64,000 nt of DNA from Mesostigma viride (Eukaryota > Streptophyta > Mesostigmatophyceae > Mesostigmatales > Mesostigmataceae). Positions 35,484-62,696 of the stretch are shown here, piece by piece (within the stretch, counting starts at the first letter, position 1; the number at the start of each line of letters is the position of its first letter). A program made the translations under genes and the position numbers. The stretch is from NCBI GenBank assembly GCA_009746045.1, contig RPFO01000436.1:48501-112500 (forward strand), given 5' to 3'. Under the pieces are notes generated by a model. The model did no database searches. It was not told where the DNA came from and was given only the letters and a program-made list of their open reading frames with translations.

Positions 35484-38400
35484 GTTCGTCTCAGGTCGCG
35501 CATGCACTCGTGAACGTGTTATAAGGCCAGCACGCGGAGCCCTTCTGGCGGTACTGGCCACCCTTCGCTTCTGACATTTCATTTTTCCTGTCCAACGCGC
35601 GTGCTGGACAACACTTACGTTTGTCCCTTTCAGTTGTCCTCCCTGGAAGAGGATGCAAATGCACTTCGCGAGAGATGCGCGAAATTCACCAAAGGAATTA
35701 AGAAGTACTCGTAAGTTCGTGCTTCTGACTTTTGCTTGGTCTGGCGACGTCACATATACATGAGCGAAGTTTCCCTTTAGACACGCTTTTGAACGCCTTG
35801 CGAAGCAGGTCTTGCTTTAGAATGAGCTACCCTGTGCACTGAAGATAGCCCTTCCTCCAGCACTTATGGCAGCAGTGGGTATGCTTCCCTGCGTGCTTAT
35901 GTGTGGTAAGCAGCATTCACGATGATGCTGGGCAGGCCATGACTGACTTTGAATGCGGGAGCCATTAATATTGGATATTAACATTAACTGCATACGTGGA
36001 GCACTTTGGGGCAGATAGCTGCTTTCCCGCCCCCCCCCCCAAAAAAAAATATAAATCCTCAGTTGATAGAGGTTACTCAACCTTGGGCCCCTTACAATAT
36101 TATATCGCGGCCCCTTAAGAGTATTATATCACGGCCCCTTGTAATATTATATCTTGGGCCCTTATTGTATTATATCGCGGCCCCTTATAGTATCATATCT
36201 TGGGCCCTTATAGTATTATATCTTGGGCCCTTTTAGTATTCTAACTGCGGGCCCTTATAGTATTGTATCGCGGCCCCTTGATAGTATTATATCGCAGCTT
36301 CATTTGAAAGCTCGGGGCACGTCCCTGCATATCACCAGCTGTGCAATTGACGTACGTACCCAAACTCCCATAGTTTAGAAAGGAAGTCTGCATAATAACT
36401 CCCGTAGTTTGCAATGGCGAGTTGATACAAAGGGCAGAGTCTTCCGCACGACAATAGTGTTACAAGACAGAGGTCTCCCCCCCCCCCAACACCTTACAAC
36501 ATATTAAAAACACACACACACACACACACACCTACAACCGTTTACAAGCCCCGCTTCTCCCGAGGCTTATCCCCTTCCTGCCTCGCTCCCACTCCATTCC
36601 CTTCCCATCTTCTCCCAGCCCCAGCTCCCACTCCATGCTCCCCTCTCCAGGCTCTTTTTCCTCCCTCTGCCCATCCCCTGGAGCTGGGCAAAGCGACCCC
36701 TTCTGGAAAGGTTGCCTTCACGAAGCCTATGAATTGATTGTGTTTAAAGATTATCATCATATAGTAGCAGTTTGGGCAAAGCGACCTCTTCTGGAAAGGT
36801 TGCCCTCATGAAGCGTAGCCTTGGTGAAGATCCTTTCGCTCAGATTTCCTTTGCTCACCTACCTTAGCGCTGCACTCACCGCAAGCACCGCACCCACCTT
36901 CAGCACTGCTCTGACGTAGTCCTCTCGCCCGATATCTTCCTCCTCTTCTTGCCCCTCCCCCCCCCCCCACCACCCCGCCCGACCCACCCTTCCTTTTTCC
37001 TCCACGCCTGACACTCCCCAATACTGCCGATGCCCCCCACTTTTCCCGGCACATACCCCTTCACCATTTCTATCAAACGGAGTTTACAGTCCATTCTGGT
37101 ACTTCCAACAGGAAAGATAATACTTATTGCTCGCCAGAATTTATATTTCGCACCGCTCCTACGCCTTTTTGTTGCTTGCCCTCGTCCCCCGCTTCCTGCC
37201 CTCTCTCCCCACACCCTTTACCTGGCCCTCTCCACTTGACCTCCTGTCCATTCCCCATGGCCGGCTGCCCTCCCTCTCCCCGTTTTCCCTCCCACTTTTC
37301 CCTCCCCCTTTTCACTCCATTTCCCCCCTCTCCTTTCCCCTCGCCCTTTTTCCCTCACCCCTTTCCCCTCCTTCCTTCCCCTTCTCCCTTGCGCTCCCCC
37401 CTTTTAACTGCGTGTACTGTAACTGGGTGATAAGCATGATACTAAATGAAATAAAATGAAATAAGGAATGATACTAAAGGAAATATAATTTAGTAGAGAA
37501 TTATAATAAATAATCGATTTTTTGAACAATCCAGCTGTGCAGCAAGCTGCTGTGCACGCACTTTGCTTGTAGAAATCCTGTGAATCATTGGCCAGTCAGT
37601 TAACAACTACCTGTGAACGATCCTTCGTAAACCACAGTTGACTGCTGTTCCTGTGCAGCGATCTGCGCATGGGGCCCTGTGGATGGCTCTCTAAGTGTCC
37701 ACTCACATTTAGCTATCGCTAAGTATTGATGACAGCTGCTATGCCTTTACAGCGAGCTGCAGCGCACGGAACTTTGTGAATGTATAATCCATGATCGATC
37801 AACTAACTTCGAGCGATCACATGCTAATCACTGTGGCTGCTGTGCCTGTGCAGCGAGCTGCTGCGCACGGAGCCTGAGGTCATGTTTGCCGGCGTGATCG
37901 AAGCGTTTGCCGATGGAGGAGTGGATGACCCCATGAGCGTTGCGATCGGAGGTGAGGGTGCAGTCGGTGCATGGATACTACCCTGTGATCAGGCGTGCGC
38001 TGTGTGTTCTGATGGGACGAACCCATCAGAGCGTTGCGGTTGGAGGTGACAATTCACTGGTTATGTTTACCCCCTACAGCAAGCCCGCTCCTGGTGCAGC
38101 TGCACGAGGCTTTGCACATATCCTTTTCTGTTAGTGAACTCGTGGCCCTGTTACTAATCTCGTGGCCCTTTTGCTAATCTCGTGGCCCTTTTGCTAATCT
38201 CGTGGCCCTTTTGCTAATCTCGTGGCCCTTTTGCTAATCTCGTGGCCCTTTTGCTAATCTCGTGGCCCTTTTGCTAATCTCGTGGCCCTTTTGCTAATCT
38301 CGTGACCCTTTTGCTAATCTCGTGGCCCTTTTGCTAATCTCGTGGCCCTTTTGCTAATCTCGTGGCCCTTTTGCTAATCTCGTGGCCCTTTTGCTAATCT

Positions 38401-41400
38401 CGTGGCCCTTTTGCTAATCTCGTGGCCCTTTTGCTAATCTCGTGGCCCTTTTGCTAATCTCGTGGCCCTTTTGCTAATCTCGTGGCCCTTTTGCTAATCT
38501 CGTGGCCCTTTTGCTAATCTCGTGGCCCTTTTGCTAATCTCGTGACCCTTTTGCTAATCTCGTGGCCCTTTTGCTAATCTCGTGACCCTTTTGCTAATCT
38601 CGTGGCCCTTTTGCTAATCTCGTGGCCCTTTTGCTAATCTCGTGGCCCTTTTGCTAATCTCGTGGCCCTTTTGCTAATCTCGTGGCCCTTTTGCTAATCT
38701 CGTGGCCCTTTTGCTAATCTCGTGACCCTTTTGCTAATCTCGTGGCCCTTTTGCTAATCTCGTGGCCCTTTTGCTAATCTCGTGACCCTTTTGCTAATCT
38801 CGTGACCCTTTTGCTAATCTCGTGGCCCTTTTGCTAATCTCGTGGCCCTTTTGCTAATCTCGTGGCCCTTTTGCTAATCTCGTGGCCCTTTTGCTAATCT
38901 CGTGGCCCTTTTGCTAATCTCGTGGCCCTTTTGCTAATCTCGTGGCCCTTTTGCTAATCTCGTGGCCCTTTTGCTTATCTCGTGGCCCTTTTGCTAATCT
39001 CGTGGCCCTTTTGCTAATCTCGTGGCCCTCTCTTTTGCTGTCCCGACCAGGGCCCATCATGGCCTAACGGTACGTCGCGCGTCTGCCCCTTGTATCACCC
39101 ACCCATCAGCCCATGGTCCATGGGTGGATCCTACCACTGCAGTCCCCTTCATCATACCTTTGCATGCCCCGTTACACAAAAAAATAAAGCACGCGACTGC
39201 GTCATGTGGGTCCCAAGGAAGAAACCGCCAACCCCCTGATAGGTGATATACAGCGAGAAGGAGGGAGTGCGCCGTAGCTTCTCTCACCACCTGGGGGGCA
39301 AAGCCACAGAGTATACTCTGCGCACTAAGGCCCCGTTATGGCGAGAGCTGTATGAGATTGACCTGCTGTCCGAGAAGCCATCATTGTGAAAGCTGTACGG
39401 GACTTTTTTGATCGCTAAACTTGAGCTCTCGGTGTTTTTCCTCGTTTATGACTCACTTGCTGTGTACTGCAGGGCCCGTGATGGCCAAGCTGTACAAGAC
39501 TCTGCTACCTTTTTCGTCACTAAACATGACGTATTGGCGTTTTCCCTTGTTTACTGCGTTGGCTGTTAACTGCAGGGCCCGTGATGGCCAAGCTGTACGA
39601 GACGCTGCGAGAGATCGGCTCCTCGCGCGAGGTGCTGCGTGCGCAAGTGGACCACATGCTGCTGGACCGCGTGACCGCCTTCTCCACCAACTACCTGACC
39701 AGCATCAAGGTGCGCGCGGGCGAGGGGGGGAGGGGGAAGAAGAAGAGAAGATGGGAACTTGAAGATCAGGCGATTGAAGATCAGGCGATGAGGGGAGGAA
39801 GAAGAAGAAGAAGAGAATATTGGGAAATTAAGATCAGGCGATGAGGGGAGGAAGAAGAAGAAGAAGAGAATATTGGGAAATTAAGATCAGGCGATGAGGG
39901 GAGGAAGAAGAAGAAGAAGAGAATATTGGGAAATTAAGATCAGGCGATGAGGGGAGGAAGAAGAAGAAGAAGAGAATATTGGGAAATTAAGATCAGGCGA
40001 TGAGGGGAGGAAGAAGAAGAAGAAGAGAGTATTGGGAAATTAAGATCAGGCGATGAGGGGAGGAAGAAGAAGAAGAAGAGAATATTGGGAAATTAAGATC
40101 AGGCGATTGGGGGGGGGGGGGGGAAGAGAAGTCTATTGTTGTATGGGGCAGTGTTTCTGCGTCTAAGGATTTTGTCTAGTAAAAACCACATGCTGCTGGA
40201 TGGCGCCACTCCCTGACAAGAGCGCTAAGGTACCCCATGCAAGCTGCCCACTGCTTTAGTTCTTGGTGTTCCTCTCAAAGGGTCTGGCTGGCGATGACTG
40301 CGGCTTCGCATGGCAAAAGGGTGCTGGCTGGCGATGACTGCGGCTTGGCATGGCAAAAGGGTGCTGGCTGGCGATAACCGCGGCTTGGCATGGCAAAAGG
40401 GTGCTGGCTGGCGATGACTGCGGCTTGGCATGGCAAAAGGGTGCTGGCTGGCGATAACTGCGGCTTCGCATGGCAAAAGGTTGCTGGCTGGCGATGACTG
40501 CGGCTTGGCATGGCAAAAGGGTGCTGGCTGGCGATACTGTTGAAGGTTGATGGAGGATTGTTCCTCGTGTATGGGCCGCTCGTATGGAAGCTTGGGGCGA
40601 AAGCCTTGCTGCAAGAGCCGGGCAAAGGGATTCTCCTATCAATTGCTGTCTATGGTTAATATGCTTCAGTGATGCACAACTCGCCTGATTTTGCATGTTC
40701 TGTGACCCACCCCGTTTTTGTTTCTGTTCTCCATTTTCCCTTTTCTTCTGCTCCCCCAGCTAACTAACCACTGTCCCCTTGTCCCCCCCCCCATTTACTT
40801 TACCTTCATCCTGCTTGTATCTCTCCTGCTTGCTTGATTTGGTCCACCCCCCCCTCCCGGCTCCTCAGGATGTCCGGAAAAAGTTCGACAAGGCCAGCGC
40901 TGACTACGACACGGTGCGCGATGGCTCCCTTCCTTTCTCGCGTCTTGTGCACATGCAATAATCTTTTTCAAATCAATTTGACGTCGTCTACCTTTCTGGA
41001 CCCCTTCTGATACCTGTGAAGATGCCGCCCCATAAAACAAGAGCTAGACTTTGCCAGGAATGTGCAGCATATACCAGAGTGTGATAGCACCTGTAAACGT
41101 ATTACTTCCCATGAAATGTACGCCAGCGACGTGTGCTTGGTTGGGATAGGCATTCGCTAAAAGCGCCTTTCTTGTCATTCACATGGCGCGTGCAACAATG
41201 TCTGCCAGCATGTTGGAACACTGCCACGCACCGTCCTCGTTGGACTTTCTTCCTCTGCATAATCTTCCTCGGAGTTCTTCCACTGCATAGCAAGCAGATT
41301 TTTGTGGTTGTACATTTACTTGCCCAGCAGATTGTTCATGGCATGACATGGCATAAATCTCTGTTCCTCGCCACCATGACACTTAACCCCTAAATGGGCA

Positions 41401-44400
41401 GAAATACTGCCGATGCATCGGCTGTAACTTCACAATTTTGCAAACCAGATGCCATCCAACCCACCCATATCCAATGGCTGTCCTTGGGGGCCAAGCATGT
41501 CCATGAGTTGCCCTTCGGGTTGGTATATCACAACCTTACATATATGCAGGGTAGGCCATGTATAACTGCCGTCAAAGTCAGGGGGGTCAAGACGAGCGTT
41601 TTCATTTTTGGTAGAATGTGCATTTTGAATTATGTTGTAAGAGCTAGGCACCTACCACTTCAGGGATGATAAACAATTAGTTGCTGAACAGTTTGAGCCA
41701 TTGGGGTCATCATTTGGGTGGGTATGCCAGCAGTTACACCCAGTACAGCCCATAGGGGTACCGTTGGTAAAAAGCAACCAAGGGGGTCGGAGTGGGCATA
41801 CTACCTACTAATACCTACTAATATGGCCCCCAACCATGCCACACAATACATTTCCCTTCCACAATGATGGGGAAACATAACTGCATCATCACACTACCCT
41901 TACATGGCACCTATGTGCAGGTGCCACCTTGTCCATGCACGTAGGTAACGTGGTACGGATACCCTACGTAAGGCATGCATTCTAGGAGGCAGCCACCAAC
42001 AAACTAGTGATTTTAAGCCTATTTCAGCTTGCCCTAGCAAGGATAAACTAGGCCTAAGCTGCTATAGCTTGCCAGGTGATGGCCAGCACACCTGGTGGCA
42101 CATGCTGACAATGGGAAGCTTCTACTCACCGGTTACATGCTTGATGATGCCACAGAGACCAGCCAACTGCCTCACACTCATGCAATATGTGTGTGGGAAA
42201 TGTATAACAAACATATATGGAGGTATTCAAACCCATACAGCATCTAAAACTTATCACCATCACACTGTGGCAGGTCAACTGACTGAGGGAAGCATCTAAG
42301 AAGGGTGTTTTAGAAAGGGGCCAGGCCAGGGTCAAGAAAGAGCATGAATAATGCAAAAAGAATGTGCTACACAAACTAGAACGTATATATAAACGTCAAA
42401 CATCGATAGGAAAACGATGCTGAAGCTTTACCAGGCATGGATGGCGTTACCTTGGCCCAGGCGGTGGCCGCAAAATGGCGCATTTCGGCGCACCAAAGTT
42501 GTGCAGCATGGTCGCTGGATTCGGCGATTTCTGGCCACCCTTGCACGTTTACGACTACTATGTATCATAAAAAGTACAAAGAAACCAATATATCCTTTAA
42601 AATACGCCGGAAAGGTATTGCTGTCAACGTTTCTATCGTCCGGCCTGATCGCAGTTTTTTCCAGCAAGAACGCTGCCGACACCTATCAAATGGCATTCCC
42701 GCGGTCCAAAAATTGGCCTGTGTGATCTTTAGGACGTATAAAATCAATTTCCTAAGTTTGGTCAGAAAATTCGAACGAAAACGTAAATGCCATGCGTGGG
42801 CGCAAGCCGCCATGGCCAGGTCGTCGTTTTCCGGAATGCACGTTGTACGTGAAAAAGTACCCTGACCCCTTGTACTTTGACCGGCCAGAACACCTCTATA
42901 ACTTTGTCAGAAGTATGCAAACCCTAGTACCATGCTGTGAGGAAAATTATAAACTTTCGATCTTCTCAGCTAAACTTTTCCTAATTCTCAATAGTTTTCG
43001 CGGCATTTGGTCCCCCGAGAAGGGGCCGACGTGTCGGCTGTAACTCAGTTTTAGGCGGAAAATCGGCAGCCAGACCATTTAGGGGTTAACTGCGGTGTTA
43101 GAATGCTCGCAGCCAAAGACAACTGACCTGTTTGAATGCCTCTATAAGAGCGCAACCAACAGACAATTGACCTATCAGAATGCTCGCAGCCAACAGGCAA
43201 CTGATCTAATAAAGTGCTCGCAGCTAACCCACAACTGACGTATTCAAATGCTCGCAGCCAACCCACAACTGACCTATTCAAATGCTCGCAGCCAACGCAC
43301 AACTGACCTATTCAAATGCTCGCAGCCACCACACCACTGACATATTAGAGCTTGCAGCCTGTGCAGGTGTCGCTCCTGCTGGCATACCCAGTGACGGAAA
43401 TCGGCCAACGTGTTATCATGAAAACGATGTCGGCCTTTCGGTCATAATGGTGGTGTGGTACCATTTCCCGCCACTCTTCCAAATTCATGTACCCTGATAT
43501 CCTCTGCATGCATGCAGGCCCATTATCATTTCCTCTGTATGCTTGCACGTGCATGATTCTGACCCGTTGATGACCTGGTTCCTGCCACACCATCGTGCAC
43601 AAATCTCCTCCTACCCCCCCCCCTCCCCCCCGCCACGTCAATTCCATCTGCTTTGTTCTTTGTCGACATGATATCAGGCGCGGGAGCGGTGCTTGTCGCT
43701 CAAGAAGGAAGCCAAGCCGGAGCTGCTCCAAGAGTCGCAGCAGGTGGGTTTCGCCTGGCATTTGTGCTTACGGTGTGCTCCTACTTGTAGCCACATGACC
43801 AAGAAGGAAGCCAAGCCGGAGCTGATGACAAGATATGAAGTGCGGTAATGCCTGGCAAGTTTGTTACGGTGTGCCCGTGTTTGGTAGTTGCGTGGCATAG
43901 TTGCTGTGTACCCATATCATGCCTGGCAGGTGACATGGATCGGGTAGTCATTCAACTACTTCAGGATCGTAATGTCCTTGACTAATAGCTGCGGGACTTG
44001 GCAAGAATATGCGCTGTTGGCCACTCGGAAAAGTATGAATTAAACTTTTGCCGAGGTCTTTTTGGTAGGGTGGGGAGGGGGAACCAAACGTAGTCTGCTC
44101 CCTTGGGGCCTGTGGTCTGCCCACAAAATGGTTCTGTCATCTTGGTTTGTGTGTGCATGCGTATGTGGGTATACATCATCAGAGCGATATGCTAACTGGC
44201 TGCCAATGGTCCCCTCATTTTCTGTTCCCTTCAACTTGTGCGCAGGGGTTGCAAGAGGCACGCTACAATTACGAGCAGGCACGCTGCCACCTGGTGAGCT
44301 TCGAGGATGTCATATCCTATACATCCCATATCCCATATCCCATATCCCATATCCCATATCCCATATCCCATATCCCATATCCCATATCCCATATCCCATA

Positions 44401-52454: not shown

Positions 52455-52550
<96 letters not shown>

Positions 52551-55500
52551 CCACACACACACACACCAGGCGCCCCAGGGTGATGAGGGCGAGATGCTGG
52601 ACATGGACATGGGCATCAACCTGCTCACCTGCACGCTCAAGAAGGACGCGGACGCGGCCGACCTGCGCTTCTGCTTCCGCGTAATCTCGCCCACCAAGAC
52701 GCTCGTGCTGCAGGTGAAGGGGGGTGGTGGTAGCCATCATGCTGGACCGAATAGGTCACTGTAGGTAGGACAGGGGCGATGGGAACGCGGCCGACCTGCG
52801 CTTCTGCTTCTGGTAACTTCCCCCCCCAAAAGTACTGACAAAGTAAGTGCCAACACTGGTAATACCCTTTTGCTGCAGGTGAGGGGAGGGGAGGGCATGT
52901 CAAGAGAGGCCTGTCAAGAGGCCATGCTATCTTTAGAACTCAGCCAATGTCTTAAGTTGTGCGGTTAAATAGTAATTGCGTTTAAATAGTAATTGCGGTT
53001 AAAGAATGCTGTCAAGCCATTGTAGGCTTATCACACCACACGCGCACACACACCCACGCCCACACCCACGCACCACCACCGCACCACCGCCACAAACAAA
53101 CCCTGCAGGTGGAGACTGCACTGGACTGCTCCTGCTTGCAGGCACTTACGTTCATTGCTTTCTCCGCATGCTCTTCTACCCCTATTCGCCTTGATTGTGG
53201 TGCCCCCTTTTCAGGCGGAGAATGAGCCGGACCGATCCTCCTGGATGCAAGCTATCCAGCTGGTCATCGAAACACTGCTTAACAGCCAGGAGCTCATCAG
53301 CGTGGCCCGGTTGCCGCCGCGGACCAACGCCAGCTTTAGTCAGGGGTCGTTCGGGGCCACCGGGTCCCGCCACCCAAGCAACAGTGACATCTCGACAGGT
53401 GTAGCGCTCTCGGCGCTTGCGGCCGGGGGAGGGGCAGGCGGCAGCTCTCAGAATCTGGCCCGGTGAGTGCTGTTGGCTGTTATTGATTGCGGTGCTCGGT
53501 GCCTATTTGGCCTACTAGGCTGCGCCTATTCGGGCTGGTGGGTGCTCTGGGCTACTGTGTTGGTGCCGTGTTGTGTGCCACTCTCCGGCTGCCCTCTTCC
53601 TTCTCCCTTCTGCTGTCATCTCCCCTTGCTGTCTCGCTTGCCCCCTTGTGGTGCGTGTGCTCCTTGCTATGCTTGTTCTGTAAGTGTTATAGTACGGGCA
53701 GTTACTATGTATAGGCTGTTATGTTATAGTTAGCTCACCATCTGCTCTTGCATGGCATGACGTAGTCCTGTGTGCTCTTGTTCTGCCTGACCATCCTTTT
53801 TGCATTCCTGTAATTCTCAACTGGCTGCTGGCATACTGTCTGTCTTCAACGGGCTATGTATTCACGGCCCCATGGGCTTCTGTGTGCTTTTGCTTTCTTT
53901 GCTGACCATCCTTATCTCATGCCGTCTCCTGTACACATGGATGTGCATGGCGCCATGTGCTACTGTATGGTATGGTTCCACCGTGATGCCGTCATACGTC
54001 ACCACAAGCTGTTAGCTGACTACGTGTTAGCTGACCATCCTTAAGGCATCTCCTGCTCATGCATGACAACATGCGTTCCCGCACTTGCAGGCCGGTATCA
54101 GACAAGTCAGCAGGAACTCCGGGCGAGGATGGCAAAGGTGGGGGCAGCGGTGCGCATGTCACAAGTATACCCAGCTTCGGGGACAGATAGCATCAGCTAG
54201 TAACAGCAGCAAAAATGGACAGGTGGGGCCAGAGTTGGCGTCTTACAAAGTTATGTGGATGTGAGAATATACTCGACACAGTTGGGTGTAGGTGCATGCA
54301 CGGGTGCACCCATGCCATGGTGGTGGGTGTGCATGCATGGTACATAGGGCTTGGGTAATTGTGTGGGAGCATGCTAGCCACCTATAGCAAGCACGCTTGG
54401 TGGGGCCAGCGGTGCACGCTCTGTGCGTGTTTCGCACACAGTGGGCACTATCTCTAGGAGTAGATGTAATAGACTAGTACTGTTGTGTTTCATGTGATAG
54501 GTACTGTCCCTAGGAATAGATATTATAGCCTAGAACTTATAGTAGCATCGGCTACTAAAGTCACCGATACATGAGCTCCCTGGTTTGTCCGTAAACAGAA
54601 TCGATCAGGAACACAGGAGATCTTGGTGTGTTTCTAATCAGAATAGGGCAATAGTGCAAACGTGAGGGAGGCTCCCCTAACGTTTGCACTAGGTAAGTAC
54701 CACAGGCGACCAAAAAAAACATATTGGCGTGTCAAAAGAAAGTTATAGGTCAAGAGTGCTCCTGCTGCCTCGCCAGTGGGTCTGCATGACCTTCTTTTGC
54801 ATGTGGTCCCGAGGATGCCTGGTCTGTTTTGTTCTCTTTATCCTTCTCTTCTTTTCTTATCATACATCGACAGCACTGTGTGTCAGTCAGTCAGTTTATT
54901 CCCACGCCGGTTGTCCGACAGAGTTATATTTAGTGGAGCCATGGGCTGGTCCGGCCTTACAAAAGTACTTGCATACTAGGGTACTTGGCCCCTTCATAAG
55001 GCACTAGACTCGAACGCGCGCGTGTGTGTTTTGCATGTGTAGTCCTGACGATGCCTGATCTGTTTTTTCCTCTCTTCCTCTTGTCATTCTCTTGTTTTCT
55101 TACTACATATCATGCGTTGACAGGAAAAGTGTCAAAAATATAAATATACTTCACGCACGTACGCATGGACACACACACACACAAACCCTCGCACTCTGAA
55201 ATGCCCCTAAGTTTATACTACCCCTCTCCCCCCCCCCCCCCGCGCCCCCCACGCATTCCATTTCCTTTCCCTCGTTGCAACCCCACTCAAAATTCCGGGA
55301 TGCTGCTGTGCACTCTCAAGCTTTCTCCTTGCCTCTGTTTCCTTCCCGTGGCAGGCACTAGATAAATCCATGTTGTCAAACCTTAAGCGACCCCCCGCCC
55401 CGTCAAATCCGCACTGCAGTTTGCCATTCTGCGCTCTCTTCTCTCCTTCTTGTTGCTGGCGCGACATGAATCCTTATTCTCAAACCCCTGCATGTTGGCG

Positions 55501-58500
55501 CGTGTGCTAATGTATTTGCATGCGCTCGGTTACCCCTTAACCTCAAACTCTTGCATTCCTTACTCTTGAACCCTTGCATGCGTACTCGTTGCAGGCGCTC
55601 GGTTAACCCCCGCGGATGGAGCCAACACCATATCCGACGGCCGTCAGGCGCCCAATTCTGCCAGGGACTTGGCTGACAGTGAGGACGGGTCGACGCACTC
55701 GGTGCGGGAGGGTTCCGTCTCGGGGGGCCCCCCCGCTATATTCACGCGCGCCGTGTCGGTGAGTGGGCCTTGATTAATGATTGGTACATTCGTTTGTCAT
55801 TGATGAGGTGGTTGGGTGGGGGCAGGAATGTTGGGTGGCCCCCCCGCCATCTTTGCGTGCGCCGTGTCGGCATGTGATGGGTTACGCTTGTATTATACGT
55901 CGGTGACTTGTAGGGTTAAAGTTGTTGGGCTAGGCTGCATGAGGGCCACCCCTCCTCTGGTGATGACCATCACAGTGACCATGATAGTGACCATGACCAT
56001 TGTACTAGGCTACTCGAGGGCAACCCCTCGCAGAAGGGGTCGCCTTGCCCAGTTCCAGGATGATTTTGGTGTATGGAGCTCGCTTGATACAAGTGATCGT
56101 GCCTTGAGGGTGGGGGAGGGGATGTTGTGTCAGGAAGTCCGTACGCTATTTCCGCACGAGCCGTGTCGGGGAGTGTGTGGTTGGGCTGGTTAAAGGTGGT
56201 TGGGTGATAATCACTTCCTTGTCCCGTGTACTTTGTCATGGACCCCTCCTACCCTTACTCAACTAACAGGGCGCCATCACCTCCCAGGTGGCAAGCGATA
56301 CGCGGCCCCCTCTGGAGGTGCTGCGGAGCGTTCCTGGGAACCAGATCTGCGCCGACTGTGGCGCGCCGGACCCTGTCTGGGCGTCCCTCAACCTGGGTGT
56401 CCTTATGTGCATCGGTGGGTGGGCATATAGGACAAGGAGGGTACCTGTGGAGACTAGCGTGTGCAGCTGGGCGGGCGCGATGTTCTACTATTACAATGGG
56501 ATGGGCCCTGAGGCATGCTGCTGTGCACGGGCGCGTGAGCAAGACTCGTGCGCAAGAAAACATGATTTTACTACTGAAATACGCGCAGCTGGCGCCCAGC
56601 GGTGGGATAGGGCTCGTGGTCGGAATGCCGGCATCCCTTAACCTGACCTCTCCCATGTCCCCCATGTCTTAATAGCAGTATCTTATTGCCTTAGTTATTA
56701 CAGTAGTGTTTCCATGCCTTAGCCCCCCTTCACCTCCCCCCCACCAGCCTTTCTCTGACGACTTTTGAACATTGTTGTCACCCTCCGATTCCCGAATTCC
56801 GATGCTTGTGGGAATCAAATTCTGTTGGGGGAATGTTCTACTCCCCTTCCTGGAATGTCACAGATTGCTCGGGGACGCACCGGCAGCTGGGTGTGCACAT
56901 ATCCAAGGTATGCTCGCCTCCACTACTGCCGCATTGGAATAACGAGCGGGGTGTGCACTACTCCAAGGCATCCACTAACTAAATGCTGCCGTGGCCGTCC
57001 ACACTGCTTTCTAGTTTGGCATTGTACATCCGCACACAAGGGCATACACCTGTCCAGGCACTGGGGCACCCACAACCATGTCTTTGGGTGAACTTACAAA
57101 TAATTGTCAGAATCACAAGTGATCGATAGTCGCTGCTGAAATAAATTAAGGCGTTATTGTGATCCCCACTTGTGCATCATGGGCATGGAAGCAATGCCAC
57201 ACACAAGGATACACACACAGACAGGGATATATACACACACGGATACATACACACGCACACACAGGCTGACTGACGGCCACCAACTGCGCTTGCTTATGTT
57301 GGTCAAATCTGTAAGATACAAGCAAGCCTAGTAGGTGCTGCCACCCATGTGCGGCCAACGTGGACATTCCAACAGGTGCAGTTGCTCATGCGCTTTAATA
57401 TTCGAGAAATGTTCCTCACTAAATATATACTAGAGTACTGGTGTACTGGTTTAGTCTACTGCAAGTGCGTTTGAGAAATGTCTGTGTGGATATCTTCCCT
57501 TTTGTACAACCCCTCTTCACTTGTGTACAACCCCTCACTACTCACACGTTCTTATGACCATCCATTCTTTCAACAATCTACTCTTCCAACCATCTACTGT
57601 TTGCCAGGGCGCTCTACCTTCATCTCTCACCCCTCATCGCTCACGCATTCTCGACAAGTCTGTATGTGAGCAAGAAAGTGTATGACCGCCATCTGCTCGC
57701 TGTCATTGGAAACACCCTGACTCTCCCAGGCGCTCGCCCAGTACTGGATGAGTAGTCCACATACTGCTATCACGAGTAGGGGGTATGTGGACAAGCAAGC
57801 TTGTGGACTGCTGCCATCTGCTTCCTGCAATTGTATCCCATTTGACTCTCCCTGGCAACTTGCACTGAGCTACTGTCTATTTACAGCAAGAAAGCTATGT
57901 TGCAAATGCTATTGCAGTCTGTGTGCTGTCACTACCATGGACTACTATACCAGTTCCTTCCCCATACACAACCCACCAGCTGCGCTCTCTCACGCTGGAC
58001 GCGTAACCGTGTGGTCATTAGCCTTTCACTCTATCTTTGATGTTTCTTTGCTGTATCGCCCACCAGTTGGTCTCGCTCATATTCGTCCTGCGCGTGTGCA
58101 CGCAACGCTGTTGGCTATCCGGCCCGTATGGCGAACCCTTAATGTATTCGCATGCTGCATCCACCACCAGGTGCGCTCGCTCACGCTCGACGTGCGCGCA
58201 TGGATCCCTTCCATCATGGCCATGTTCCAAGAGCTGGGAAACAACGCCGTCAACGAGGTGGGTGGGTGGGTGGGTGGGTGGGTGGGTGGGTGGGTGGGTG
58301 GGTGGGTGGGTGGGTGGGTGGGTGGGTGGGTGGGTGGGTGGGTGGGTGGGTGGGTGGGTGGGTGGGTGGGTGGGTGGGTGGGTGGGTGGGTGGGTGGGTG
58401 GGTGGGTGGGTGGGTGGGTGGGTGGGTGGGTGGGTGGGTGGGTGGGTGGGTGGGTGGGTGGGTGGGTGGGTGGGTGGGTGGGTGGGTGGGTGGGTGGGTG

Positions 58501-61500
58501 GGTGGGTGGGTGGGTGGGTGGGTGGGGTGGGTGGGTGGGTGGGTGGGTGGGTGGGTGGGTGGGTGGGTGGGTGGGTGGGTGGGTGGGTGGGTGGTGGGTG
58601 GGTGGGTGGGTGGGTGGGTGGGTGGGTGGGTGGGTGGGTGGGTGGGTGGGTGGGTGGGTGGGTGGGTTGGTGGGTGGGTGGGCGGGTGGGTGCGGGGGTG
58701 GGTGGGCGGGTGGGTGGGCAACAACGCTGTCAACAAGGTCGGTGCATCCCTTGCTAGCCATTTCTTTTTGCCGCCCCTATCGTGTCCTCTCTGCTCGTCA
58801 TTGTTTGCATTTCCTACCATTTGTTCACACATTCCTTTCCTCTCATTTCCTTTGCTGAGACTTTAAACATCGTGTTAACGGCTTGCTCCCCCCTTCCCTG
58901 CCGTCGCATGGTCTGCTATCGCATTGCTTCTATGACTACTATAATTATTATTCATAATAACCATGAACTATAAACTGTTTGCTCACACATCCTTGGCTAC
59001 CACATCCTTTGCTGTCATATCGTCTCTCTCACGCAGGTATGGGAAGAAGCGCTGCTGCGCGCCAAGGCCCAGGACGCGAGCGAGCTCGCCAACAATGGGG
59101 GCGCGGGGGCGGCCGCGGCCGCCGACGATTCCTGGCTGTGGAGCGCTGACGACGACGACGACGATGAAGAGAGCACAGGACTCGTCTGCACTCCCGTGTC
59201 AACACTCGCGAAGCACGCGGCGCTGGCCATGAAGGGACCTGGGGCGGCAGCGGGGGCTGGGGCGGCAGGCAAGGGGGACGCGGCGGCGGCCCCCCCAATG
59301 ATCGCCAAGCCGAACAGGAATGATCCGATGTCGGTGAAGGAGCAGTACATTCGTGCAAAGGTAATGGTTGTGTTCCTGACGAGCTCGACATTGTGTCTTC
59401 TATAACAAGCCGAACAAGAATGACCCGGCGTTGGTCAGGGAGAGCATCGCATTTGTGCCAACTGCCATGGTAATGGTCATTTGCTTCTATAGCTTACGGT
59501 TATTTGTTGGGTGTTTGCTTACCATTCTAGTTATGGTTGACTATATAATGCAAATCGTGGTTCTCTGAACATAGTTTATTTATAGTGAGATGGAAGGGTA
59601 GCCGCTATAGCTAGGTTAGAGGGTTCAATTGACATACCTTTTGAGGCCGGTGCGGCCTGATCCGGATCGGTAGTGGCACTGGATTTGACCAGTTTTTCCT
59701 GGCCAGGTGGCAGGAGCTACGTTGAGATATAAACCTGCCACTGTCTAGGTTTCTTTGTTAATGACGTAGTTATTAACTAGATCTAGATTCTTTCTCTCAC
59801 GCAGTATGTGATCTAATAGCCCCGGCAGACCTACATAAGCCGCCGGCAATTAGAACGCCAGTTCGCGTCATTTGTTCAGACGCAAAATTTGCGTTGCGAG
59901 ATAATGCCGTCCGGGCCAAGGCCGCGTGACACGCAAAAAATACAAAAGCAAACCCACCTAGCTAAGGTCGGCCTCTTTTCTTTTCCCGCCCACCCTCCCT
60001 GCGTGTTTGGGGGTAAGGCTAGCCTTTGCCAAGCAATAAGTGTTCCCATGAGCATCGGCGGCCGGGATGTGGCCTGCCTTTTGTATGTGCTCCACTTATT
60101 GTTTTAATAAAGAGTCTGGTTACCCTGGAGTTCCACGGTTAATAGGACAAATTTTCTATACAATCTTTTACTTCCGATGACGTGGTGCGTTTATATACAT
60201 CTCCCACGCGATGCAATATACTTTTTCTCTACCACGCACCACGTGGACTGCCAGGTGGTGCAACCTTTGATTATTATGTTTATACTCTTCTCTCTGCGCA
60301 TAGTCCAATTCATTTCTCTTATCTCCATGGAAGAATGTGGATCACGGGGGACACACGTCACACTTGGGCGCTCTGTTTCCTTTCTTGGTGTTTCATTTCT
60401 TGGTTATGTCACTTGGGCTCTCTGTTTCCTTTCTTGGTGTTTCATTTCTTGGTTATGTCACTTGGGCTCTCTGTTTCCTTTCTTGGTGTTTCATTTCTTG
60501 GTTATGTCACTTGGGCTCTCTGTTTCCTTTCTTGGTGTTTCATTTCTTGGTTATGTCACTTGGGCTCTCTGTTTCCTTTCTTGGTGTTTCATTTCTTGGT
60601 TATGTCCTGGGTAGTCTTGGTTATGTCCCAGCAATGCATAGACTGGCGCTTCGTCGCCAGTGAAGACATCACCCACATTCTAGCGCGTAGGCATGTCTCC
60701 CTGTGCACTTTGGTCCCTTTCTGCCATCGACTCTCGTAACACACCGACAGCACATAGACCATTGCTTTATGTTTATGCGAGGAAGATGAATAACCGCACT
60801 CTTGCGTTTGTTCCCTGACAGCACACTCTGGACCCTCTGGTGCCATTCATCTGCCAATCATTTTTCCTGCCCCCCCCCAGTACGTCGACCGCCGGTTTGT
60901 CATCAACGAGGAGATCACCCGCAACCCTGAGGGAGCGGCTCAGCAGCTCTGGGACGCTGTGGCATCTGCCCGCATTAAGGATGCGATGCGGCTCCTAGTC
61001 CATGGAGTGGGCGTGAACGTGGTCTATCGCACCGAGGCAGCGTTTGAGCTGGAGTCGGCGGCAGAGGACGCGGCGGCGGCGTGTGCGGTGGGGGAGGGGC
61101 CGGGGAGCCCCCGGATGCAGCCCCCCATGCCGGTGGTACCAACTGCCAGGTGAGATAGTTATAATGATGGAAATGCCCAGAACCAGCTAATTAGTTAACA
61201 TAATATTCAACCATGCATGCTGGCGGCATCAGCTGCCAGGTGAGATAGTCATAACTATGGGAATGCCCAGAACCAGCTAATTAGTTAACGTAAGATGCAA
61301 CCCTCCATGCTGACGGCATCAGCTGCCAGGTTAGACAGTATATAGCCTCTACTGCTGGTCATAATGAAATATAGTAGGTTTGTCAAATCGCAGACACCGG
61401 AAGCGTGATGGATGGAGAGCAGGCTTGGACCATACTGCTGGAGGGAGGGGTCGACATTGGGATTGGCAGTCACGTGTTAAGGGGTTATTTTTGGAATCGC

Positions 61501-62456
61501 TCAACAACAATCGTAAGGGTTTGTGGGGGTAATCGCCCCAATGGTGGCGGCATCATCTGCCATGAGAGAGGGGGAGCCAAACGCAGCCTTCGATGTCCGC
61601 TGATTGGTGGAGATCGAAGAGTCATGTGCAGTGATGCCTGCGGCTAGGTGAGATGCTGGCAGCAGTTAACGAGATGGAGAGCGGGCTCAACTGTTTTTTG
61701 CATGTGCCCCACTCCTTTAAGCTCTAACCTCCTCAACCATCCCCTCAACCCGAATCCACATAAGCCCCTTCCAGCTTACGTCCCTAAACACCTCCATATT
61801 TCCCGACCCCGAGCACAAGCACAAGTCCCAACTGCCAGACACCCTCCCCCTTACCTTTTCAAACCCCCGCTTTCTTCCCTCCCCCATTCCTCTCCTCCCC
61901 TTCCCCCCCCCCCCCTTCCCCTTCTCTCCCCCCCCCCCCACTCTTCCCCCACTGCTCTCTCTCACTTCCCTCCCCCCTTCTGCCCTCCCCTCCCATTTCC
62001 CCCCCCCTTCCTCCCCCCCACCTGCCGCCCCCTCCCCAACCTCTTCACTCCCCCACCTGCCCCCCCCCCCGAAATTCCACCCCCCCCATTTCTCTCCCCC
62101 ACCTGTTCCCTCCACAACAGCAGCGGGGCCGCCAGCACCGCCCCCGCAGGCACCGCTGCCACTTCCGCGACCGCCGCGGCCGCGTCCACCAACGTCGAAG
62201 ACGAGTTCTCGCGCATGGCCACCCTTGCGTCCCGTGCCCGCGCGCGCGCTGCGAGCGACGAGATGTGGCAGAAGGCCAAGGAAGGGCGCGGCGTGCGGCT
62301 GTTACACCGCGCCTGCGCCTCGGGCCACGACGCCGTCGTCGAGCTGCTGCTCCAGCACGGCGCGAGGCCCAACGAGATGGACCGCCACCAGCGCACGCCG
62401 CTGCACTACTGCATGCTGTACGGGCGCAGCGAGGCCGCCAAGCTGCTGCTGTCGAG
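35430..62456 (+). CDS. ACAP/AGD-type Arf GTPase-activating protein (BAR-PH-ArfGAP-ankyrin), 21 exons seen, 3' end outside
   Basis: The spliced exons give 939 codons plus two bases, all joined in phase by GT-AG introns. Residues ~1-289 form a BAR domain (membrane curvature, dimerisation). ~290-405 is a PH domain (phosphoinositide binding), ~405-550 a Ser/Gly-rich linker, ~555-670 the ArfGAP zinc finger (CxxC-x16-CxxC) with its catalytic Arg. An acidic/Ala-rich insert and ankyrin repeats follow. Animal ACAPs and plant AGD1-4 share this order and promote GTP hydrolysis on Arf at membranes. The start is chosen because an in-frame TAG lies at 35424. The gene continues past 62456. Confidence 0.93.
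35634..35710 (+). CDS. Exon 2 (BAR helix 1)
   Basis: Begins after cccctttcag-type acceptor sequence and encodes [20 protein letters not shown] and onward, an amphipathic helix. Ends with two bases of a split Ser codon before gtaagt. Confidence 0.9.
36080..36300. repeat. ~22-bp minisatellite in intron 2
   Basis: About ten units of GGCCCCTTATAGTATTATAT with alternating CGC and CTT ends. The last unit fades at 36297. Confidence 0.9.
36509..36532. repeat. (CA)n in intron 2
   Basis: Short dinucleotide run. The following 36540-37420 is C/T-rich with no gene recognised on either strand. Confidence 0.85.
37536..37771 (+). pseudogene. Three exon 3 acceptor ghosts
   Basis: Degenerate copies of the exon 3 acceptor and first codons occur at 37536-37560, 37649-37672 and 37748-37771, each about 100 bp apart, before the true exon at 37854. 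Confidence 0.75.
37854..37951 (+). CDS. Exon 3 (BAR)
   Basis: Encodes [20 protein letters not shown] and [12 protein letters not shown]. Chosen over the three upstream ghosts because only this copy stays open and joins both neighbours in phase. Confidence 0.88.
38127..39027. repeat. 20-bp tandem array in intron 3
   Basis: About 44 units of cttttgctaatctcgtggcc, with rare gtgaccc and gcttatc variants. No spacers, so not a CRISPR array. Confidence 0.97.
39046..39505 (+). pseudogene. Exon 4 acceptor ghosts
   Basis: A clear copy at 39469-39505 repeats the acceptor and the next ~30 coding bases (AGGGCCCGTGATGGCCAAGC). Weaker ones lie at 39331-39356 and 39046-39070. Confidence 0.75.
39184..39330 (-). 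mobile_element. 3' fragment of the L1-like element in intron 3
   Basis: Homologous to 1161-1310. The 3' end lies beside an A-rich stretch (aaaaaaataaag on plus), on the minus strand. 5' truncated. Confidence 0.55.
39576..39709 (+). CDS. Exon 4 (BAR)
   Basis: Encodes [20 protein letters not shown] and continues to [10 protein letters not shown], a long helix as in ACAP BAR domains. Donor aag|gtgcgc. Confidence 0.92.
39765..40110. repeat. 53-bp minisatellite in intron 4
   Basis: About six units containing gatcaggcgatgagggg, AAG repeats and attgggaaattaa, ending in a G run. Confidence 0.93.
40275..40540. repeat. 40-bp minisatellite in intron 4
   Basis: Six to seven units of ggcatggcaaaagggtgctg plus gctggcgatgactgcggctt. 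Long minus-strand ORFs across it are repeat artefacts. Confidence 0.93.
40869..40913 (+). CDS. Exon 5 (BAR)
   Basis: 15 codons, [15 protein letters not shown], matching the KKxFDKAxxxYD pattern of ACAP BAR domains. Confidence 0.92.
41387..43085. mobile_element. TTAA-flanked DNA element (1699 bp) in intron 5
   Basis: An 11-bp inverted repeat CCCCTAAATGG at both ends, with TTAA at 41383-41386 and 43086-43089, gives a piggyBac-like signature. Interior sequence on the minus strand is homologous to the element at 28146-29865; both give peptides with RCMGLNT/CCMGLNT and a C-W/L-LEKT stretch. No intact transposase is visible. Confidence 0.75.
43090..43345. repeat. ~35-bp minisatellite in intron 5
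   Basis: About seven units of atgctcgcagccaaccca plus caactgacctattcaa, starting directly at the TTAA of the transposon. Confidence 0.9.
43678..43743 (+). CDS. Exon 6 (BAR)
   Basis: Encodes [20 protein letters not shown] and QQ. In phase on both sides; donor cag|gtgggt. Confidence 0.9.
43798..43828 (+). pseudogene. Exon 6 ghost
   Basis: A 24-base stretch coding for KKEAKPEL is repeated about 90 bp downstream and then diverges. Confidence 0.8.
44246..44293 (+). CDS. Exon 7 (BAR)
   Basis: 16 codons, [16 protein letters not shown], like the EAR..Y..AR segment of ACAPs. Confidence 0.9.
44321..44555. repeat. (CCCATAT)n heptamer array in intron 7
   Basis: About 33 units starting ~27 bp after the exon 7 donor, with CCCATAG variants near the middle. 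Confidence 0.97.
44815..49330. repeat. 85-bp minisatellite in intron 7
   Basis: About 53 units. Variants are a 6- or 7-G run, single or double GGT after gctgggt, and gccatcc or gtcatcc. It fills most of the 5.4 kb intron. ORFs on both strands are artefacts of the repeat. Confidence 0.98.
49728..49865 (+). CDS. Exon 8 (BAR)
   Basis: Encodes [20 protein letters not shown] followed by a helix rich in F/H ([20 protein letters not shown]), the best-conserved BAR stretch of ACAP proteins. Confidence 0.94.
50147..50194 (+). CDS. Exon 9 (BAR end)
   Basis: 16 codons, [16 protein letters not shown]. Donor cgg|gtgagt. Confidence 0.9.
50724..50757 (+). pseudogene. Exon 10 acceptor ghost
   Basis: After a cag it repeats, with changes, the first ~34 bases of exon 10 (gcaccaacaactacatg is shared) and then diverges. 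Confidence 0.75.
50860..50955. repeat. CTGCCCTGGTC(C/T)G repeats in intron 9
   Basis: About seven short units before the exon 10 acceptor, giving a pyrimidine-rich stretch. Confidence 0.8.
50984..51142 (+). CDS. Exon 10 (BAR-PH linker)
   Basis: 53 codons ([20 protein letters not shown] onward), helical, ending AAVAQSSSK. Donor aag|gtaacc. Confidence 0.9.
51771..51808 (+). pseudogene. Exon 11 acceptor ghost
   Basis: Repeats the ATCxxxATCxAGCxGGGCTACCTG pattern of exon 11 with several substitutions, ~100 bp before the real exon. Confidence 0.75.
51876..52019 (+). CDS. Exon 11 (PH domain, first half)
   Basis: Encodes the start of the PH fold: [12 protein letters not shown], then [19 protein letters not shown]. 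The Lys/Arg positions fit phosphoinositide-binding PH loops. Confidence 0.94.
52130..52340. repeat. ~44-bp minisatellite in intron 11
   Basis: Four to five units of catctgttaccgtatctttt plus attcaactctgatatcgc. Confidence 0.9.
52359..52414 (+). pseudogene. Exon 12 acceptor ghost
   Basis: Repeats the acceptor and the GGTGATGAGGGCGAGATGCT region in altered form, including a stop codon (tag) in the frame. Confidence 0.8.
52458..52567. repeat. (CT)n(CA)n tract forming the exon 12 acceptor
   Basis: About 36 CT units are followed by about 18 CA units, ending acacaccag at the exon. The microsatellite supplies the polypyrimidine tract. Confidence 0.95.
52570..52713 (+). CDS. Exon 12 (PH domain, second half)
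   Basis: Encodes [20 protein letters not shown] and [13 protein letters not shown], the later beta strands of the PH domain. Confidence 0.93.
52785..52812 (+). pseudogene. Exon 12 internal ghost
   Basis: acgcggccgacctgcgcttc and following bases repeat an exon 12 segment ~70 bp after its donor. Confidence 0.8.
53215..53462 (+). CDS. Exon 13 (PH C-terminal helix and linker)
   Basis: [15 protein letters not shown] supplies the C-terminal PH helix with its invariant Trp. A Ser/Gly/Ala-rich linker follows. Ends two bases into an Arg codon. Confidence 0.93.
54091..54137 (+). CDS. Exon 14 (linker)
   Basis: Short Pro/Ser/Gly segment [15 protein letters not shown]. The phase fits both neighbours; no other evidence supports it. 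Confidence 0.75.
55517..55541 (+). pseudogene. Exon 15 acceptor ghost
   Basis: gcgctcggttaccccttaa resembles the first codons of exon 15 (gcgctcggttaaccccc), ~80 bp upstream. Confidence 0.6.
55595..55758 (+). CDS. Exon 15 (linker)
   Basis: Encodes [20 protein letters not shown] and an acidic Ser-rich stretch, ending [10 protein letters not shown]. Low complexity; likely disordered. Confidence 0.8.
55837..56174 (+). pseudogene. Two exon 15 donor ghosts
   Basis: The last ~35 bases of exon 15 with the donor are repeated at 55837-55870 and, more diverged, at 56138-56174 (gccgtgtcgggg). Confidence 0.75.
56270..56414 (+). CDS. Exon 16 (ArfGAP zinc finger, first part)
   Basis: Encodes [20 protein letters not shown] and onward to LMCI. 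The first two zinc-binding Cys (C565, C568) and the third (C585) are present at CxxC-x16-C spacing. Confidence 0.96.
56864..56907 (+). CDS. Exon 17 (ArfGAP zinc finger, catalytic Arg)
   Basis: [15 protein letters not shown]: supplies the fourth Cys and the Arg of the GTHR motif that acts in GTP hydrolysis. Joined to exon 16 through a split Asp codon. Confidence 0.94.
56945..56970 (+). pseudogene. Exon 17 donor ghost
   Basis: gcggggtgtgcactactccaagg repeats the exon 17 end in altered form, 50 bp downstream. Confidence 0.65.
57974..58101 (+). pseudogene. Two exon 18 acceptor ghosts
   Basis: caccagctgcgctctctcac (57974) and caccagttggtctcgctcat (58061) both resemble caccaggtgcgctcgctcac at the real acceptor. 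Confidence 0.75.
58171..58257 (+). CDS. Exon 18 (ArfGAP core)
   Basis: Encodes [20 protein letters not shown] and ELGNNAVNE, the S-L-x-L-D-x-W and GN segment of ArfGAP domains. Confidence 0.95.
58258..58718. repeat. (GGTG)n array beginning at the exon 18 donor
   Basis: About 115 GGTG units, the first of which is the 5' splice site gag|gtgggt. A few GGGCG and GTTG variants lie at the right end. The WVGG and HPPT ORFs across it are artefacts. Confidence 0.97.
58718..58740 (+). pseudogene. Exon 18 donor ghost
   Basis: gcaacaacgctgtcaacaag followed by gtc repeats the exon 18 end on the far side of the GGTG array. Confidence 0.8.
59037..59360 (+). CDS. Exon 19 (ArfGAP end with acidic/Ala-Gly insert)
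   Basis: [12 protein letters not shown] continues the ArfGAP fold. An Asp/Glu run and an Ala/Gly-rich stretch follow. The end, [18 protein letters not shown], matches the conserved ArfGAP C-terminus KEQYIxAKYV when joined to exon 20. Confidence 0.93.
59403..59478 (+). pseudogene. Exon 19 donor ghost
   Basis: The last ~70 bases of exon 19 with the gtaatgg donor are repeated with substitutions 45 bp downstream. Confidence 0.85.
60350..60610. repeat. 49-bp minisatellite in intron 19
   Basis: About five units of cacttgggctctctgtttcc plus tttcttggtgtttcatttc. Confidence 0.95.
60881..61149 (+). CDS. Exon 20 (ankyrin region start)
   Basis: [11 protein letters not shown] completes the ArfGAP end. 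[20 protein letters not shown] reads like the first ankyrin repeat of ACAPs. A low-complexity Ala/Pro tail follows. Confidence 0.93.
61224..61338 (+). pseudogene. Two exon 20 donor ghosts
   Basis: agctgccaggtgagatag (61224) and agctgccaggttagac (61312) repeat the exon 20 donor, within ~90-bp tandem copies that also share ccagaaccagctaattag. Confidence 0.75.
61860..62110. repeat. C-rich polypyrimidine stretch before exon 21
   Basis: Long C/CT tracts, up to 12 C. ORFs here are compositional. Confidence 0.85.
62121..62456 (+). CDS. Exon 21 (ankyrin repeats)
   Basis: After an Ala/Ser-rich lead, [20 protein letters not shown] and [20 protein letters not shown] form at least one and a half ankyrin repeats. 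It ends two bases into a codon, so at least one more exon lies beyond. The acceptor could also be at 62124. Confidence 0.92.
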
Positions 62457-62523
62457 GTGAGGATGACCTTATGTAGAGACCTTATAGAGAGACCCTTGCG
62501 ACACTTGTGCATGCTGCACTGTA

Positions 62524-62696
62524 GACGGGCGCAGCGAGGTGGCAAAGCTGCTGCTGTCGAGGTATAATGACCGCCCCCCTGTAGTGACCACCACCATCCT
62601 TTGAGTGACCCCCGGTTTAGAATAACTTTTGCTGCACTGGGGCATGCTGCGCGAGCGCGGCAAGGGGGCTGCCAAAGCTGCTGCTGTCCAGGTATA
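62524..62696 (+). pseudogene. Two exon 21 donor ghosts
   Basis: gctgctgctgtcgaggta (62524-62566) and gctgctgctgtccaggta (62641-62696) with preceding gggcgcagcgagg-like sequence repeat the exon 21 end. Confidence 0.85.

Follow-up and report, generated by a model that had tools for sequence, protein, structure and literature searches.

The window analysed here comprises 64,000 nucleotides of the streptophyte Mesostigma viride (GenBank assembly GCA_009746045.1, contig RPFO01000436.1, positions 48,501 to 112,500 of the forward strand), and all positions given below are those of the window. It harbors a gene of 20 exons (E1 to E20, 35634-62456, plus strand) whose introns contain degenerate copies of exon-edge sequence, denoted as ghosts in the following. 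The ghosts are found next to the exons from which they derive, in the intron adjoining the source edge. It is likely that they arose by recurrent tandem duplication of blocks spanning splice junctions, with the exon-joined copy staying in use and the spare exon end decaying inside a longer intron.

The exons were located manually, guided by open frames and GT-AG signals, yielding a computed gene model in which the joined frame runs through 921 codons without a stop and every junction shows AG/GT. Pfam matches above the cut-offs comprise BAR_3 (residues 4-220), PH (274-385), ArfGap (535-624), and ankyrin (871-920); this is the domain order (BAR, PH, ArfGAP, ankyrin) of an ACAP/AGD-type ArfGAP, which we take the host gene to be. 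Among solved structures, the ArfGAP part strongly matches 3jue, the ARFGAP with coiled-coil, ANK repeat and PH domain-containing protein 1 (whole-chain E 1.5e-27), and the ankyrin part of 3jue is matched weakly. Presumably, the gene extends past the found exons at both ends; E13 and the joint between E19 and E20 are, in our judgement, the least supported parts of the model. Exons have a GC content of 65% and introns one of 51%, and of the 24.1 kb of intron, 13.7 kb remain after masking. A search for relatives in viral contigs found none. A record from a bacterial bin (Rhodospirillaceae, PBPM01000043.1, L001:6559-6645) contains an ArfGAP-like piece, a weak match covering query residues 12-41 and perhaps a eukaryotic contamination.

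The specificity of the ghosts for their own intron was assessed with 60-bp exon edges, compared with up to 500 bp of the own flanking intron and with the other introns in 5000 permutations. Since these query edges consist of exon sequence only, the splice consensus is unable to contribute to the scores. The own intron ranked best for 13 of 20 donor edges and 10 of 20 acceptor edges. The own-intron scores sum to 316 for donors and 270 for acceptors, as opposed to permuted means of 172 and 170, respectively, and these sums were reached in 0/5000 permutations. When the donor edges were compared with the intron on the wrong side, the latter was best in 0/20 cases (sum 167 vs 170, P 0.59). The same control for acceptor edges gave three best matches among 20 (sum 194 vs 167, P 0.009), all from the short exons E5, E8, and E16 (66, 48, and 44 bp), because here the query spans all or nearly all of the exon and catches donor ghosts.

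A catalogue of ghosts was compiled by comparing 80-bp edges with as much as 1000 bp of intron, with score thresholds of 12, 13, and 14. For a score of at least 12, it holds 35 ghosts, which belong to 22 edges and 15 exons; at a score of at least 14, ghosts are present in the facing intron at 19/40 edges and in 13/20 exons. With swapped introns, a score of at least 14 occurred in 1.3% of 760 comparisons, a null that is conservative because the downstream intron of an exon is the upstream intron of its neighbor, so that some true pairs are included. Inverted edges reached a score of 14 in 1/40 cases, and the central parts of the four longest exons (at least 180 bp) scored at most 10. Chance similarity is therefore rejected on the basis of the own-intron permutations, the swapped introns, and the inverted edges. 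These results bear out the original prediction, made from the sequence of this region, that ghosts accompany at least 12 of 21 exons; the two exon numberings differ because 21 exons were counted then and the rebuilt model has 20. Its statement that the copies lie in the intron facing the source edge agrees with the own-intron specificity, the wrong-side control, and the direct orientation.

The distance of a ghost from its source is given here as a shift in bp. For the 22 nearest ghosts, the shifts amount to 60, 73, 90, 92, 99, 100, 101, 103, 104, 106, 106, 107, 111, 133, 205, 216, 246, 250, 260, 277, 480, and 534 bp, so that 14/22 lie within 60-133 bp, in line with the predicted 50-130 bp for most ghosts. 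Eleven of the 22 are located within 90-111 bp (binomial P ~9e-8 against a log-uniform distribution over 30-550 bp), a band picked after seeing the data. The duplicated unit has a preferred length near 100 bp. A self-match profile of 8-mers, computed with arrays masked and independent of the exon-edge procedure, shows 23, 46, and 10 exon-intron matches at shifts 90-99, 100-109, and 110-119 (79 in total; baseline 0.6 per 10 bp). Intron-intron matches are raised at shifts 80-139 (21, 44, 3, 17, 14, and 14 per bin; baseline 2.8), which is probably due to a considerable extent to a 90-bp array at E19, and exon-exon matches number 0-3 per bin past shift 30. In the mobile-DNA-rich stretch 1-35200, no clear excess is seen at shifts 90-119 (19, 8, and 15 per 10-bp bin; baseline 9.4).

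Whether the copied block spans the splice junction was addressed for the 30 ghosts with a score of at least 13. The stretch of intron separating the junction from the nearest ghost, limited to 80 bases, was aligned at the shift of the respective ghost, excluding the ghost's own exon bases; this procedure replaces a hand-picked version (10/19 shifts) that was partly a comparison of ghost with ghost, notably at E20. At the 1% null level, 7/30 ghosts have the intron side copied with an identical shift. Direct repeats of an exon edge plus adjoining intron at one shift are thus present at 7/20 edges, and at 10/20 edges when the 5% null level is applied, namely at the acceptors of E2, E3, E7, E10, E14, and E17 (the last exactly at 0.01) and the donors of E5, E14, E18, and E19. 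In six of them, the acceptors of E2, E3, and E17 and the donors of E5, E14, and E19, the intron-side match reaches the junction base. Among the tested nearest ghosts with shifts of 90-111 bp, 8/10 fall below 5%, the donors of E2 and E20 failing. The units at the 7/20 edges therefore span the splice site, and the same may be supposed for the remaining edges. Alignments crossing the junction exceed all 250 null scores in 20/24 cases; they are not independent evidence of spanning, because they include the exon part used in finding the ghosts and cheap gaps lengthened the spans.

The same test bears on the view that the ghosts stem from pieces of exons that were reverse-transcribed or gene-converted and reinserted at scattered sites. 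Such an origin would suit copies located 200-500 bp from their exon and the half of the tested edges that lack detectable intron-side homology. The direct orientation, the side specificity, and the intron side co-copied at the 7/20 edges argue against it. Moreover, sequence past a ghost resembles the own intron (mean 8.9) rather than the neighboring exon (mean 5.1; Wilcoxon P 0.0005), and 0/24 ghost flanks continue into the neighboring exon at a score of at least 12, so none is mRNA-like. Reinsertion is accordingly regarded as extremely improbable. As separate candidates, inverted or dispersed insertion was rejected on the inverted edges and the flanks resembling the own intron, and mRNA-derived copies on the exon-exon junction being found in 0/24 flanks.

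The favored explanation, duplication across the junction, would proceed as follows. A block, most often of about 100 bp, that spans a splice junction duplicates in tandem, repeatedly, each event placing a second splice site with its exon edge head to tail with the first. The copy joined to the exon body, i.e. the downstream acceptor or the upstream donor, would be kept in use, because the protein stays intact only that way; it is this copy that is part of the 921-codon open frame. The other copy, with its severed piece of exon, would fall into the intron, lose constraint, and decay, each event leaving the intron about 100 bp longer. Repetition would build ladders of ghosts, and extra rungs may come from unequal exchange. 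As for the mutational step, two staggered nicks at a distance of about 100 bp that are filled in and end-joined can be proposed as one example, and replication slippage as an alternative. This order of events, the net growth of the intron, and the continued use of the exon-joined splice site are inferred from the copies. If each of the 35 ghosts represents one unit of about 100 bp, they would account for roughly 3.5 kb of the 13.7 kb of intron that masking leaves. The part of the original prediction that invoked duplication across splice junctions is thus supported in this gene by direct copies located in the facing intron, with the intron side co-copied at 7/20 edges.

The expected decay of the spare copy was examined on the exon parts of the 30 ghosts with a score of at least 13 (5 of the 35 were dropped). 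In these alignments of ghost to exon, a check that the prediction had proposed, ghosts are 80% identical to the exon (819/1019 columns). Differences affect 56/334, 49/337, and 77/330 of the first, second, and third codon positions (chi-square P 0.02). Frameshifting indels occur in 11/30 ghosts and a stop in 2 more, and the splice dinucleotide (AG or GT) is kept in 15/26 ghosts and lost in 11/26. This survival is close to what about 80% identity leaves and hence speaks neither for nor against the duplication scenario. As judged from sequence, the ghosts decay like non-coding DNA, without coding constraint, and occasional splicing would be compatible with this pattern. With differences in all codon positions, 11/30 ghosts frameshifted, and 11/26 devoid of the dinucleotide, the predicted decay of the redundant exon end holds.

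The retained dinucleotides and the modest third-position excess could also be taken to indicate functional alternative splice sites or partial alternative exons. This reading is very unlikely: the surplus at third positions is also expected since synonymous change in the real exon adds to it, and the frameshifts, stops, and lost dinucleotides are at odds with function. Tandem duplicated alternative exons would be complete exons with an open frame and a splice site at either end; the copies here are edges or pieces of exons, and working alternative exons were rejected on these sequence grounds.

Local copies are not confined to exon edges. Windows in intron interiors have such copies in 78/817 tests (9.6%; null 0.5%), and in 111/873 tests (12.7%) when a candidate transposon is masked as well; they occur in every class of distance from the junction (4.8% to 23.7%). 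Junctions are hence not the sole site of local duplication, since intron interiors hold copies too. In a matched test, 17/38 exon edges have a local copy. Of the intron windows touching a junction, 15/38 score at least 14, a value that becomes 9/32 without six windows that looked like simple repeats or arrays on visual inspection (donors of E3, E6, and E17; acceptors of E9, E11, and E20). Upstream of E13, 53753-54091 contains intron-only local copies (windows 53753-53993, score 15-20) that are ladder-like and have no detectable exon part.

These data raise the alternative that local tandem duplication is uniform in introns and that exon edges merely preserve a readable copy, junctions being nothing special. 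Interior copies far above the null, in all distance classes, are what it predicts, and the contrast between exon edges and interiors is indeed partly an archive effect, because the exon stays readable and two intron copies both decay: in a simulation at 30% divergence, a junction duplication was detected in 65% of cases from the exon vs 9% from two decaying intron copies. When uniform duplication was simulated, with the unit assumed to be 103 +/- 8 bp and the ages obtained from a fit to 18 ghost edges, the predicted interior detection was nevertheless about 45% (43% at a constant rate), against the 12.7% seen. An old burst (divergence 0.26-0.42) alone lowers the prediction to 11%; the fitted ages have most of their weight at divergence 0.14-0.22 and some at 0.42. 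Uniform duplication, which needs such a burst, is therefore considered rather unlikely. Junctions look enriched for duplication relative to interiors; by our own arithmetic with a simple decay model and one gene, this enrichment would be four- to sixfold, an estimate to be read with the caveat that intron sequence rich in arrays or derived from transposons may postdate the junctions. That tandem duplication of about 100 bp, concentrated at junctions, is the main engine of intron growth in this lineage is a possibility, with the odds somewhat against it.

Several exons have more than one ghost, as had been predicted, e.g. the E10 acceptor with its ladder of three rungs. Ladders with roughly one period are seen at E2, E10, E17, E19, and E20, and in some of them the rungs lie near multiples (E10 at 107, 206, and 344; E2 at 101 and 311). 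Together with nearby arrays of 53 and 90 bp, such ladders would also arise from few primary duplications if minisatellites had been seeded at a small number of junctions and had expanded by unequal crossing over or slippage. Ghosts of their own (score of at least 14) are present in 13 exons, and therefore at least about 13 primary events are needed; seeding explains the extra ladder rungs alone and is, as a general account, improbable.

Some observations weigh against recurrent duplication across junctions as set out above. Half of the nearest shifts (11/22) lie outside 90-111 bp, reaching up to 534 bp. No intron-side homology below the 5% level is found at 10/20 edges, the donors of E2 and E20 included, and 20/30 single ghosts fail this level, many of them farther rungs. 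At the E3 donor, one of 19 edges, the source of the ghost lies 29 bp inside the exon (inner-part copy 40185-40214, 24/30 positions identical, shift 534), and the E11 donor-side ghost (52778-52829, 44/53, shift 133) is likewise detached, its source being 16 bp inside the edge; a later loss of the edge is therefore required for both. Finally, the explanation is based on one gene.

The individual exons and ghosts, all on the plus strand, are described below from the 5' end of the gene, with identical over aligned positions in brackets. No ghost at score 12 accompanies E1 (35634-35710), the first exon found and the start of the BAR domain, E4 (40869-40913), E6 (44246-44293), E8 (50147-50194), or E13 (54091-54137), the own intron of E8 ranking best with a score of 11. 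A single ghost of score 12 is found at E12 (53215-53462), a weak acceptor ghost at 53111-53136 (19/26, shift 106), and at E15 (56270-56414), the first of three ArfGAP exons (56630-56645).

E2 (37854-37951) has an acceptor ghost at 37753-37770 (17/18, AG kept, shift 101), where the intron side is copied too, up to the junction. A second one at 37545-37558 (score 12, shift 311) is weak alone and gives 22/24 over 37535-37558 when the intron side is added; the donor ghost is located at 38015-38045 (25/31, GT kept, shift 92). Further into intron 2, a 20-bp unit is repeated 44.5 times at 98% (38139-39029), adjoining a ghost of E3. The acceptor of E3 (39576-39709) is preceded by a ghost at 39473-39505 (31/33, AG kept, shift 103), again with the intron side copied up to the junction, and by further ghosts at 39332-39357 (22/26, shift 246) and 39051-39074 (19/24, shift 525). 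An array of 6.2 copies of a 53-bp unit (39777-40107) begins 68 bp past the E3 donor; the unit resembles the intron start 39719-39776, without an exon part. Intron 4 harbors a candidate non-autonomous transposon (41383-43089) with the inverted ends TTAA-CCCCTAAATGG and CCATTTAGGGG-TTAA, framed by TTAA and presumably piggyBac-like. At E5 (43678-43743), the donor-side ghost 43800-43833 (31/34, shift 99) comes with its intron side, starting at the junction. Most of intron 6 is occupied by an 85-bp satellite (44814-49328, 53 copies, 97% matches).

E7 (49728-49865) has an acceptor ghost at 49512-49548 (29/38, shift 216) with a similar, C-rich intron side. Two acceptor ghosts precede E9 (50984-51142), at 50727-50762 (30/36, shift 260) and 50574-50601 (24/28, shift 414), both with AG kept, and a donor ghost follows at 51399-51418 (17/20, GT kept, shift 277). 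The ladder of E10 (51876-52019) consists of 51769-51804 (30/36), with the intron side copied too, 51680-51710 (24/31), and 51536-51569 (27/36). E11 (52570-52713) has, besides its detached donor-side ghost, an acceptor-side one at 52373-52408 (30/36, shift 205).

At E14 (55595-55758), the acceptor ghost 55522-55536 (14/15, shift 73) has lost AG, and its intron side is similar at shift 86; the first donor ghost 55833-55869 (31/37, shift 111) has lost GT and shows a similar intron side from the junction on (2% null level), and a second follows at 56109-56168 (41/60, shift 408). The ArfGAP exon E16 (56864-56907) is followed by a donor ghost with GT lost (56945-56967, 19/23, shift 60). E17 (58171-58257), also coding for ArfGAP, is preceded by acceptor ghosts at 58072-58094 (18/23, shift 104; intron side similar up to the junction, 1% null level) and 57981-58001 (19/21, shift 191), both with AG kept. 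A (GGTG) array of 115 units (58257-58718) sits between its real donor and a ghost donor located at the far end of the array (58715-58737, 20/23, GT kept), as if the microsatellite had expanded between two donor copies. E18 (59037-59360) has a donor ghost at 59406-59461 (42/56, shift 100). E19 (60881-61149) shows an acceptor ghost at 60641-60677 (26/37, shift 246) and three donor ghosts: 61205-61239 (25/35, GT kept, shift 90), contained in the 90-bp tandem array (61143-61339) and with the intron side copied from the junction on, 61294-61329 (28/36, GT kept, shift 180), and 61536-61562 (20/27, shift 414). The ankyrin exon E20 (62121-62456) is followed by donor ghosts at 62508-62561 (45/55, shift 106) and 62631-62691 (47/61, shift 231), GT being kept in both.

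Beyond the gene, an array of the 8-bp unit TCACCCAC runs from 63232 to the end of the window (64000). The opposite part (1-35000) contains several copies, in both orientations, of reverse transcriptase-like and tyrosine recombinase-like frames with (ATTC)n arrays, which we assume to be DIRS-like. In a coding scan of bases 1-35200, no second gene was recognised among the best 60 segments, several of which had no Pfam comparison, and many segments are repeated copies of this retroelement-like set of reading frames. The best coding-like segment outside the gene lies on the minus strand (1557-2540, 328 aa).

The origin of intron length is poorly understood. If ghosts are general, intron growth would become readable event by event, each ghost giving the source, the approximate breakpoint, and, via its divergence from the exon, the age; neutral substitution patterns could be followed beside a known ancestor, and two copies of one splice site would offer natural tests of splicing choice. 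If junction-centered duplication does prove to be the main engine of intron growth, exons would serve as fixed reference copies, and the past lengthening of introns would be preserved in every gene as fossils that can be dated.

Introner elements, dispersed and near-identical elements that make new introns, are a source of intron sequence in algae and other eukaryotes. Unlike these, ghosts are local copies of their own exon, and within the gene the edges bearing ghosts match the own intron rather than others. Intronic minisatellites share with the ghosts the head-to-tail arrangement, and several arrays occur in the same introns; the ghost ladders differ in that they are short and diverged and that each is anchored at the edge of the exon it comes from. 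Intron gain by duplication of an exonic AGGT, which then supplies both splice sites, does not fit either, as ghost-bearing introns end in different exons and no intron of the gene was seen with copies of one and the same exon stretch at both ends.

A candidate mutational source is the repair of staggered breaks. According to the available part of the report, end joining of such breaks gives tandem duplications in mouse cells and reportedly also in Arabidopsis (PMC5730883). As here, the products are direct tandem duplications in which further rounds are possible; that system concerns induced breaks in mouse embryonic stem cells, and the available part states no link to splice junctions or to 100 bp (PMC5730883). 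That new introns arise by tandem duplication has also been proposed, and documented for some cases, as far as the accessible portions of two articles go (PMC4974935, PMC2891723). The excerpt on Drosophila describes partial exon duplication with intronization, one exonic copy turning intronic, and thus resembles the present case in that one duplicated exonic stretch ends up in an intron; there, novel intron positions come from a coding proto-splice site, whereas here the block contains an existing junction (PMC2891723). In ATP2A1 and in the RNA-dependent RNA polymerase (RdRp) gene of potato, short tandem duplications supply duplicated splice signals, and in the latter the copied block includes intron-exon structure, an 83-bp intronic duplication being noted as well, again in the part of the text at hand (PMC4974935). 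Short tandem duplications duplicate splice signals in the Mesostigma gene, too. Compared with what that text relates, a new intron formed by one event, existing introns appear lengthened here, at many junctions of one gene, at some of them repeatedly, and with a preferred unit of about 100 bp (PMC4974935). Among the open-access titles and opening lines of abstracts listed, no report of recurrent junction-spanning duplication as a lengthener of introns was found, which is weak evidence of absence. Measured against these partly seen sources, the repeated tandem duplication, with a preferred unit, by which introns already present would have been extended at the majority of exons in one gene is apparently new.

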